NCBI RefSeq assembly: GCF_014202895.1
Contig: NZ_JACHHV010000007.1
Span: forward strand, 1-64,000
Direction of reading: 5' to 3'
Length of the DNA stretch: 64,000 bases
Origin: Lactovum miscens
Lineage (GTDB): Bacteria; Bacillota; Bacilli; Lactobacillales; Streptococcaceae
Part shown: piece by piece, positions 2,956 to 7,212 of the stretch
Numbering within the stretch: the first letter of the stretch is position 1
Layout of the letters: each line of letters opens with the position of its first letter
Translations under genes and position numbers: made by a program
The notes under the pieces: generated by a model
Told to the model about the DNA's origin: nothing
Databases searched by the model: none
The model's input: only the letters and a program-made list of their open reading frames with translations

Positions 2956-4086
2956 TTAATTTAAGTTATCAAGTGCCTCGATCACGCTTTTCTTTGCTTT
3001 TTGGGTTACGTGATTGTAAATTTCAAGCGTCGTCTTTGAATTTGAGTGACCAACTCTTTCCATAATTGCCTTGATTGGAAGATTCAGCTCAGCTAAAAGC
3101 GATACATGTGAGTGTCGGAAAATGTGAGTTGAGAGATTCTTATCTATTTTTAGATTTTTCCCAGCTTTTTTTAAAGCCAAGTTAAAAGCTTGCATTGAAA
3201 TTGGAATCTTAGACGAGTGTGAAATAAAAATATAGTCGTCACCATTAACACTTTTATGATTCAAAGTATCTTTTTTTTTAACCTCTTCAAGTAGCTCAAT
3301 TGCTCTTTTAGAAAGATCAACTGTCCTAAATGATGAACTATTTTTCGGCGATTGTTTAACATGTCTTTCTAAGTTCTTGATATATGGCCCTAATGTTCCT
3401 GTAACCTCTATAGATTTCCCGTTAAAGTTTGACCACTGAAGTGCTTGGAGTTCTCCAAATCGTAACCCCGTTAGATATAGAAACTCTGTAATCAAAGCGT
3501 ACATGATTGAGTTTCTGCTATTAAAATAATTAACGATATCTAGTACTTCATAGCGTTCAAGATAGTCCGCATGCACTTTTTTATCTGAACTTTTCCGTTT
3601 AAGCGTTATTTTTTCAATTGGGTTTGAATCAATATACTCGCGTTCAACAGCATAGTTAAACATATTTGAGAGCATTGCTTTAATTAAATTAGAATAGTTT
3701 AAAGAGTAGGTTCCGAGAGTGTAAATTTTATCGAAAAAATTCAAAAATGCTTGTTTATCTGCTTGCTTAATTAATGTATCTTTATCAATAATTTCGAAGA
3801 CCTTTTTGAAAGAAGTCTTGGCTGAAACAACACTACGAGGTTTCGAAGTTTGCTCATATCTTAACAGCCATTCATTGTATAGCTGCTCTAATGTCATCTT
3901 AGCAAGATTAGAAGTGCTAGTCGAATACTTATCTATTTTCACATTTAATAGTGCTAGCGCTTGTTTCTTTGCTTGTGGTGAATCCTTTTCTAAAGTAACA
4001 GATACTTTCCTTGCTTTATCTGTATATGGGTCAATCACTCGCTCAACGTATTTAAATTTTCCATTTTCTAGCTTTTCAATCCACAT
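2956..4086 (-). CDS. int: phage tyrosine-recombinase integrase
   Basis: Site-specific recombinase that inserts and excises the prophage at the att core next to it. The 376 residues show an N-terminal arm-binding segment, a SAM-like core-binding domain (about 60-165) and the catalytic domain with TGLRFGE (Arg about 209), HIFRHSH (His about 321, Arg about 324), VGHSNSKTT (His about 347) and the nucleophile in EIYNHV (Tyr about 357). All catalytic residues are present, so it looks functional. GAGG precedes the ATG. Transcription runs towards attL and ends at the hairpin at 2874-2914. A broken relative of the promoter region and of an integrase lies at 51820-52636. Confidence 0.95.
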   Translation of the reverse strand: MWIEKLENGKFKYVERVIDPYTDKARKVSVTLEKDSPQAKKQALALLNVKIDKYSTSTSNLAKMTLEQLYNEWLLRYEQTSKPRSVVSAKTSFKKVFEIIDKDTLIKQADKQAFLNFFDKIYTLGTYSLNYSNLIKAMLSNMFNYAVEREYIDSNPIEKITLKRKSSDKKVHADYLERYEVLDIVNYFNSRNSIMYALITEFLYLTGLRFGELQALQWSNFNGKSIEVTGTLGPYIKNLERHVKQSPKNSSSFRTVDLSKRAIELLEEVKKKDTLNHKSVNGDDYIFISHSSKIPISMQAFNLALKKAGKNLKIDKNLSTHIFRHSHVSLLAELNLPIKAIMERVGHSNSKTTLEIYNHVTQKAKKSVIEALDNLN

Positions 4087-4198: not shown

Positions 4199-4876
4199 TT
4201 ACCAATTGCCTTGCTTATACTTTGCATCGACAGAAGTTAACCCATCAATATGTAAAGCTAATGAATCTTTTATTGGATGACCAAGAGGATCTAACACAAA
4301 ATCTATTCCTTCTCGTCTCGCAAGCTTTGCTGCTGGGACAAAATCACTATCACCAGCAATCAGAATAATTTTGTCAACTTGATGTTTTAAACTTAAAGTT
4401 GCTATATCAAGTCCGATACGCATATCTACGCCCTTTTGTTGTACACTAAAAGATAGATTCTTTTGTTTTAAATCTTCTATTTTTATATGACCATTAAATA
4501 AAGCTTTTGTAGTGTCTTTATTTATAGAGTAACCTGCATTACCGTCACTTAGTTCTCCAAATCTTAGCGCAACTTTTCTTTTGTGTGCCAGTTCTTCGAA
4601 GAAGTCTCTTGCCCACTTACTACTCTCTAATTTTAAAAAGTCAACATTTTCATGGGTTAATGGGTTATAGATTACCTTATCACTAGGTTGGCAGTCATAA
4701 TAAAAAATTCGATATAACTCATCATAAGTTTTTATACCATAGTTTTTATCAGATAAGTGTCTATTACAGTAACTATAAAGTTCGTCTGCTCTCCCAGATG
4801 AGCTCTTAGGCCCCATTACTTTATTAGAAACTTTTCTATAAAATCCGCCATCAATTAATATTGCCACTTTTTTCAT
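4199..4876 (-). CDS. NYN-domain (LabA/PIN-like) nuclease
   Basis: A 225-residue protein of the NYN superfamily, PIN-like metal-dependent ribonucleases. Visible hallmarks are the N-terminal ILIDGGF with Asp9, and LIAGDSDFVPAAKLARREG with Asp176 and Asp178, the acidic metal site; VDMRIGLDIATL precedes it. A central basic stretch could contact RNA. No membrane segment or signal peptide. GGAGA sits seven bases before the ATG. It is transcribed with the lysogeny block and is preceded by a strong promoter, a structured leader and a terminator (4891-5014), an arrangement like type III toxin-antitoxin loci. A role in superinfection defence is an inference; the nuclease assignment is good. Confidence 0.8.
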   Translation of the reverse strand: MKKVAILIDGGFYRKVSNKVMGPKSSSGRADELYSYCNRHLSDKNYGIKTYDELYRIFYYDCQPSDKVIYNPLTHENVDFLKLESSKWARDFFEELAHKRKVALRFGELSDGNAGYSINKDTTKALFNGHIKIEDLKQKNLSFSVQQKGVDMRIGLDIATLSLKHQVDKIILIAGDSDFVPAAKLARREGIDFVLDPLGHPIKDSLALHIDGLTSVDAKYKQGNW

Positions 4877-4890
4877 TTTATCTCCATGTA

Positions 4891-4980
4891 TAAAAAAATC
4901 TCTTGACCTTAACTGATCCCATAAAGTGGGGAGTTGACTATCAAGAGATACTTTAACATATTAAGCATACTTTGTATGCT
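4891..4980 (-). ncRNA. candidate leader RNA upstream of the NYN gene
   Basis: The promoter at 4986-5014 should start an RNA near 4980. It begins with a hairpin GCATAC-AAA-GTATGC (4965-4979) and ends in a long stem: outer arms 4898-4906 and 4941-4949 (nine pairs), inner AACT/AGTT and CCCA/TGGG pairs, followed on the minus strand by T7 (4892-4898). The result is a terminated RNA of about 88 nt, with the NYN ribosome binding site only six bases beyond the T tract. It could be an independent RNA, an attenuator, or both. Confidence 0.6.
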
Positions 4981-4985
4981 TTTAT

Positions 4986-5014
4986 ATTCTAACAACTCTT
5001 GATTAATTTGTCAA
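4986..5014 (-). promoter_or_regulatory. consensus promoter for the NYN leader RNA
   Basis: On the minus strand TTGACA (complement of 5009-5014), exactly 17 bases, then TAGAAT (complement of 4986-4991). This is one of the best -35/-10 pairs in the window. It lies downstream of the DUF4177 gene and gives the NYN gene its own transcription start. Confidence 0.75.
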
Positions 5015-5156: not shown

Positions 5157-5360
5157 TTACATTCTTTCAAAAACTAGTGTAGCTTGGATACGATCACCAC
5201 CACCAAAGCCCTTGCTTCCACTACTTGTCGTTGAAATAGTATGTAATCTATAACCTTGTGCTGCTTGCTTATTCAAGATATCTTCAAGCTCACCAAGATT
5301 TTTTGAGCCTTTTCCGATAAGTTGCTCTTTTAAAACAACTTGTAAAACTTTGTAATCCAT
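5157..5360 (-). CDS. DUF4177-like small protein, copy A
   Basis: A 67-residue soluble protein starting MDYKVLQVV, with the short beta-alpha-beta pattern of DUF4177 proteins (YKV at the start, AAQGYRLHTIS in the middle, ending in a beta strand with ATLVFERM). Function is unknown for the family. It is nearly identical to copy B at 7009-7212; bases 5182-5387 and 7034-7239 are identical over 206 positions including the ribosome binding site AGGAGA. The two copies bracket a Ser-rich membrane protein and a K+ channel. Copy-number retention suggests either recent duplication or gene conversion. Confidence 0.7.
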   Translation of the reverse strand: MDYKVLQVVLKEQLIGKGSKNLGELEDILNKQAAQGYRLHTISTTSSGSKGFGGGDRIQATLVFERM

Positions 5361-6113: not shown

Positions 6114-6299
6114 AAATTACTCCTTGCCATTTTAGTGGTGGCAAACACATGTTATACATAATCAAGACTATAAAAGCTTTATGCTAATATTTCTCTGATT
6201 ATCACCAAGTAAGATAATTTTATCAAGGTTAAAATTAAAACTACTTAGCTCCTCCTAATTAAGAATAGTTCCTCCTAGCCAACCAAGGATTGGTTGAAT
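6114..6299. other. intergenic segment between Ser-rich and channel genes
   Basis: Holds a hairpin CAACCA-AGGAT-TGGTTG at 6280-6296 next to the channel stop codon, which could stabilise or end the channel mRNA. On the minus strand it also holds two AGGAGG-like sequences about 20 bases apart (6250-6276) with no start codon behind them; these may be remnants of lost small genes. Confidence 0.3.
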
Positions 6300-7008: not shown

Positions 7009-7212
7009 TTACATTTTTTCAAAGACCATCGTCGCTTGGATACGATCACCACCACCAAAGCCCTTGCTTCCACTACTTGTCGTTGAAATAGTATGTAATC
7101 TATAACCTTGTGCTGCTTGCTTATTCAAGATATCTTCAAGCTCACCAAGATTTTTTGAGCCTTTTCCGATAAGTTGCTCTTTTAAAACAACTTGTAAAAC
7201 TTTGTAATCCAT
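7009..7212 (-). CDS. DUF4177-like small protein, copy B
   Basis: Second 67-residue copy, differing from copy A only near the C-terminus (ATMVFEKM in place of ATLVFERM). It lies between the channel gene and the ImmA-like gene, and has the same ribosome binding site. Being first in the accessory run directly after ImmA-cI, it is probably co-transcribed from the cI promoter. Function unknown. Confidence 0.7.
   Translation of the reverse strand: MDYKVLQVVLKEQLIGKGSKNLGELEDILNKQAAQGYRLHTISTTSSGSKGFGGGDRIQATMVFEKM

Follow-up and report, generated by a model that had tools for sequence, protein, structure and literature searches.

A conserved RNA upstream of NYN-domain genes in a Lactovum miscens prophage and in many phyla, probably part of a toxin-antitoxin-like module

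The window analysed here, a 64,000-nt stretch of Lactovum miscens DNA (contig NZ_JACHHV010000007.1), carries on its minus strand an intact gene for a 225-aa NYN-domain protein, a predicted nuclease (4199-4876). A repressor/ImmA-like pair (8007-7259) lies on one side of the gene and an integrase (4086-2956) on the other. The interval between repressor and integrase is the usual site of lysogenic conversion genes, and this position fits expression in the lysogen. The same lysogenic region holds two nearly identical, duplicate DUF4177 genes of 67 aa, also on the minus strand (5157-5360 and 7009-7212), which flank an ion-channel gene and a gene for a serine-rich membrane protein.

An earlier reading of the sequence alone (the sequence-only reading) had described a consensus promoter, a short RNA of about 88 nt with its own terminator and a ribosome-binding site in front of the nuclease gene. 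All of these are present, and the observation proved to be larger in scope than was noted. The promoter (4986-5014, minus strand) is of the sigma-70 type and has 11 of 12 consensus bases, with TTGACA at 5014-5009, a 17-nt spacer that contains ATCAAGAG, and TAGAAT at 4991-4986. The -10 box places the start of the RNA near 4980, giving a predicted leader of about 89 nt (4980-4892, within a feature drawn at about 4892-4981 on the minus strand), whose fold has a minimum free energy of -27.6 kcal/mol (z = -5.2), with none of 200 dinucleotide shuffles as stable. The leader opens with a hairpin (4963-4981), AAGCAUAC AAA GUAUGCUU, which has 8 bp and not the 6 bp first counted, and a short linker, an interrupted stem and a U7 tract (4898-4892) follow. 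This stem had been described as branched and is instead a single interrupted helix of P1, an internal loop and P2. It comprises the P1 5' arm AUCUCUUGAU (4940-4949), the internal-loop strand AGUC (AGUA in most relatives) with P2a/P2b and the apical loop (4911-4939), and the P1 3' arm GUCAAGAGAU (4898-4907), which together with the U tract makes the terminator. The ribosome-binding site GGAG (4885-4882) stands between the U tract and the gene.

The window protein matches Pfam NYN (PF01936) with E = 6.5e-10 and PHROG 5783, which is annotated as of unknown function, with E 2.3e-84. Asp9, Asp176 and Asp178, previously noted as intact, are invariant in all 167 distinct proteins compared, as are Asp151 and Asp157; Asp61 is nearly so, with one change among the 167. 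That these acidic residues never change argues for an active nuclease. The AlphaFold2 model of the protein has a pLDDT of 93, and its best structural neighbours among viral models are NYN and LabA-like/DUF88 proteins, at TM-scores of about 0.4. Sequence and profile searches of the PDB with the window protein gave no match, and a Foldseek ranking of PDB structures was set aside because its TM-scores were all low. The PADLOC models gave partial matches only, to a generic NYN model (3.9e-05) and to HEC-09 (0.0034).

Homologues, with identities of 36-85%, come from three settings: phages (of Lactococcus, Streptococcus, Dorea, Moraxella, Proteus and E. coli), plasmids (of Xanthomonas, Aeromonas, Thermus, Campylobacter and Salinivibrio), and genomes of Alloscardovia, Corynebacterium, Treponema, Akkermansia, Fibrobacter and many Bacillota. 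The Thermus and Campylobacter plasmid homologues L016, L017 and L021 adjoin SNF2-helicase or N6-methylase genes, possibly a different setting for the NYN family. A small set of integrase queries found an integrase in 74 of 160 downstream flanks, so that a phage-immunity position is common for these loci; a claim that it is universal would go beyond this evidence.

Reading the sequences upstream of the homologues without a prior model, we found a common element, mostly 10-90 nt upstream of the start codon. Fifty-six cores align nearly gap-free in the order P1, NAGUA, P2a, C, P2b, a loop with a conserved AU, CGA and the P1 3' arm. The core is thus composed of P1, which doubles as the terminator stem, an AGUA/CGA internal loop, P2a and P2b. 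In this alignment all 16 core pairs show changes on both sides, paired cells amount to 90.9% as against 70.8% in shuffles, and RNAalifold recovers 14 of the 16 pairs unaided. Since the cores had originally been found through P1 complementarity, we retested P1 with anchors taken from the inner motif only. P1 then pairs at 86.7% of positions, compared with 52.9% (sd 1.6) when partners are permuted between loci; pairing falls to chance at out-of-register offsets, and a U tract is present in 89 of the 90 loci of this set. In the P2a/P2b pairs, which played no part in selecting sequences, 67 cells are double changes; shuffles give 22.7, and none of 500 shuffles is as high. A nested structure accounts for the observed covariation. 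The core is therefore a covarying RNA family with compensatory changes across phyla, the kind of conservation that the sequence-only reading had proposed to look for in the upstream hairpins.

The window core (4893-4951, minus strand) matches the covariance model, R1, with 49.1 bits and E = 5e-13, the window sequence being itself among the 56 from which the model was built. This match is far beyond chance, and there is no other convincing one in the 64-kb window. No Rfam 15 family reached its gathering score at the leader, in the window or in 16 homologous loci, and a scan of the window leader at a relaxed E-value gave chance matches only. The 5' hairpin is also enriched in the homologues (85%, versus 31% in shuffles). 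At the edges of the family, the inner stems of the E. coli and Thermus members differ but are related, and the E. coli, Proteus and Campylobacter members have stems that the model does not match. A comparison of the E. coli and Proteus phages shows one inner pair changed on both sides, from C-G to U-A. The AGUA/GAA loop might form a bulged-G module like that of the 23S sarcin-ricin loop, in which case the RNA would act as a decoy of that target; the loop sequence is compatible with this idea.

With the covariance model at E<0.001, 151 of 174 homologous loci, a set that includes a few near-duplicates, have the RNA immediately before the NYN gene, among them 95 of the 118 loci that had no part in model building. 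This linkage spans many phyla. In the 1.25 Mb covered by these loci the sole match elsewhere at the same threshold is a second copy in locus L161 (4939-4997), which scores better than the first and lies directly before an integrase gene, downstream of the RNA-NYN pair. Full-length family members occur in 5 of 399 genomes of the host phylum, all five with the RNA, which in one of them (G128) was recognised by eye at 20.8 bits. Promoters scoring at least 8.5 of 12 are present in 101 of 141 leaders and in 7 of 141 coding controls. One homologue, L183, has no convincing RNA. Weak model matches in other genomes, at about 17-29 bits, look like ordinary hairpins. The sequence-only reading had staked itself on NYN homologues not turning out to lack a conserved upstream RNA, and the search for such homologues found the RNA conserved across phyla and left that reading standing.

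P1 with its U tract is terminator-like, and one could suppose that an ordinary terminator happens to precede an unrelated gene, the similarity among loci reflecting only the common descent of phage DNA. This is scarcely credible. The compensatory changes at all 16 pairs, and with them the P1 and P2a/P2b covariation tests, contradict it, as does the conservation of unpaired loop bases. The RNA is present in distant phyla, and nine loci of other NYN subfamilies contain no full-size match to it.

When viral sequences were searched with DNA patterns of the RNA core, without regard to the protein, 24 loci were retrieved; 13 have an intact NYN gene, two a broken one and nine none on the record. In the broken cases the NYN gene is frameshifted (L238) or ends after nine codons (L239), and the RNA is intact in both. 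The nine records without NYN anywhere (L224, L225, L228, L230, L231, L233, L234, L241 and L249), some of which are fragments, have orphan cores of 40-79 bits, several with promoter and 5' hairpin kept. The orphans of L224 and L234 sit between repressor and integrase and that of L225 before an integrase; those of L231, L233, L241 and L249 precede scaffold, terminase or HNH/terminase genes. On the phage record L230 there are two RNA copies (6217-6275 and 3846-3905, minus strand), adjoining repeated genes and an Abi_2 gene. One further viral scan with a degenerate pattern gave no match, and blastn with the RNA consensus matched Salinivibrio plasmids only and no phage.

The RNA is likewise found in two bacterial genomes without a family NYN gene. 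In L184 (1485-670, minus strand) it precedes a Schlafen AlbA_2-type gene beside a prophage repressor. The weaker match, L189 (1501-1560, minus strand; 35 bits), is an orphan near CRISPR-like arrays and a RelB/YafQ-like pair. Broken partners also occur outside the viral set. On a Salinivibrio plasmid (L250) an intact RNA accompanies an NYN gene whose product is shortened to 75 aa. Among E. coli genomes, 274 match the E. coli phage locus and 73 of these contain most of it; the partial matches sampled come mostly from O157:H7 and cover about half of the locus, and the single one examined, an O157 prophage (L248), has an intact RNA beside an NYN gene whose product, cut after residue 118, is 129 aa long.

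An antitoxin-toxin pair predicts that the RNA is kept where the NYN gene is lost or broken, and both the orphans and the RNAs next to broken genes speak for an RNA that is useful in its own right, as expected of an antitoxin. The orphan RNAs look like phage-carried antidotes. Some may be remnants of lost NYN genes, and recent decay explains some cases of a retained RNA, as is evident for L239, L250 and L248. The same orphans bear on a reading in which the RNA is a cis-regulatory leader only, which attenuates the NYN mRNA and has no function in trans, the NYN protein perhaps binding or cutting the RNA and so setting its own level. The RNA is indeed a 5' leader, terminator included. Against this reading, which we consider unlikely, stand orphan RNAs with promoters and strong cores on records without NYN, and a conservation of the internal loop across phyla that goes beyond the needs of a terminator. 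The orphans also count against the RNA as an activating cofactor or guide, with the NYN protein inactive alone and an RNA-protein particle acting on phage nucleic acid, since they have no partner nuclease on the record. The tight one-to-one linkage would suit such a particle, as would a variable P1 sequence on a fixed scaffold; P1, however, is fully paired and serves as the terminator, and a spacer-like segment was not found. We regard this as a rather improbable third choice after the cis-only leader.

A further feature of the window lies in the promoter spacer, where ATCAAGAG is an exact reverse complement of a stretch of the P1 5' arm and so resembles the P1 3' arm. Across loci the longest spacer stretch complementary to the P1 5' arm has a mean length of 3.60 nt, versus 2.95 (sd 0.09) with partners permuted, and 24 of 101 loci have a match of at least 5 nt where 5.8 are expected and 14 is the maximum in 300 permutations; these permutations correct for relatedness only in part, and the matched P1 sequences differ among most loci. 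The transcribed 5' region and the DNA upstream of the -35 box show no such excess. The copy falls outside the RNA made from the promoter at 4986-5014. One possible role is in transcripts that read in from further upstream: by competing with the P1 3' arm, the copy would open the terminator and spoil the RNA. Alternatively, the match may be a sign that the RNA controls the promoter. A spacer strand that competes for the P1 5' arm and so could serve as an antiterminator in such incoming transcripts would also suit a leader acting in cis only, and the covariation of the match between loci is a point for the cofactor or guide. A nuclease guided by its RNA, among the functions suggested from the sequence alone, is nevertheless not favoured because, this match excepted, we saw no variable segment that could act as a guide to a recognised target.

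The locus had been likened to type III toxin-antitoxin systems. In ToxIN, CptIN, TenpIN and AbiQ an RNA antitoxin gene and a terminator precede the gene of an RNase toxin (PMC5086642). The window has the same order of promoter, RNA gene, Rho-independent terminator and putative toxin gene, with the difference that the terminator is P1 of the RNA itself. The differences already suspected were borne out: the RNA has no tandem repeats, only one 12-nt direct repeat that is non-tandem, and a ToxN/AbiQ endoRNase fold was not found in the protein, whose only Pfam match is NYN. Type III antitoxin RNAs further fold as H-type pseudoknots and neutralise the toxin by binding it directly; in the present family a nested structure accounts for the covariation. 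With repeats and ToxN fold both absent, the locus would be a variant that functions in the type III manner and not a member of classical type III. The type III-like layout, the non-repeated RNA and the NYN fold of the putative toxin are what stands of the earlier interpretation.

BstA-like prophage defence genes also lie beside the phage repressor and are paired with a linked self-immunity antidote; the BstA antidote, however, is a DNA element, and the BstA protein is unrelated to NYN. The window protein is a clear member of PHROG 5783 and PF01936, and the description of PHROG 5783 includes no RNA partner. An NYN domain in a defence setting is known from the CRISPR-associated NYN RNase of Bacteroides fragilis, a Mn-dependent single-strand RNase of a type III CRISPR locus that is thought to trim crRNA, but no linked leader RNA of the present kind is described there (PMC11346440). 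A close parallel is AbiF/RCd22 of a Clostridioides difficile prophage, in which a promoter, an RNA of about 100 nt and a terminator precede a toxic protein made by read-through; whether supplied in cis or in trans, this RNA neutralises the toxic protein (PMC12373285). Its protein is Abi_2 (PF07751), whereas that of the window is NYN, and its RNA has two copies of the abiF motif (RF03085), to which the window leader has no match.

The best explanation, by analogy with AbiF/RCd22, is that an NYN RNase restrained by its RNA works in the manner of a type III toxin-antitoxin. We rank it before the other two readings because its layout, size and read-through logic match those of AbiF/RCd22 and because escape of phages from ToxIN by RNA mimics, pseudo-ToxI, is known (PMC3475682). 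The promoter would yield mostly a short RNA ending at its own P1 terminator, with occasional read-through giving the mRNA of the RNase. The RNA, folded into the conserved stem with the AGUA/CGA internal loop, would bind the NYN protein and hold it inactive. Should the RNA supply drop, as it could if host transcription is shut off by an infecting phage, the freed RNase would cut phage or cellular RNA and the infection would abort; phages with only the RNA would be safe from the nuclease. The anatomy, conservation, covariation, linkage, invariant catalytic residues and orphan RNAs are the observed basis of the module, and from them we infer its transcription, the RNA-NYN binding, the inhibition, toxicity and trigger, and the defence against phage.

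The locus is thus probably a prophage-borne, toxin-antitoxin-like module of RNA and protein, in which a non-repeated RNA restrains an NYN RNase toxin. More tentatively, and with rather less confidence than we would call probable, we suggest an RNA-inhibited NYN nuclease defence that temperate phages and plasmids carry across phyla. Other phages would hold the bare RNA in their immunity or late regions as an anti-defence antidote in an arms race, and the copy of the P1 arm in the promoter spacer would be an extra control that switches or disables the RNA. The literature searched, which took in few subscription papers and preprints, contained no report of the present RNA or of an RNA antitoxin paired with an NYN toxin, and our results suggest that the RNA and the nuclease it restrains form a pair that is widespread and apparently undescribed. 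Whatever the RNA does, the existence of the family is firmly established. If the proposal is right, natural phage-carried RNA antidotes, of a kind rarely documented, would be on offer, the PHROG 5783 family would gain a function, and an NYN/PIN-like fold and a new RNA family would be added to the few known RNA-protein toxin-antitoxins.
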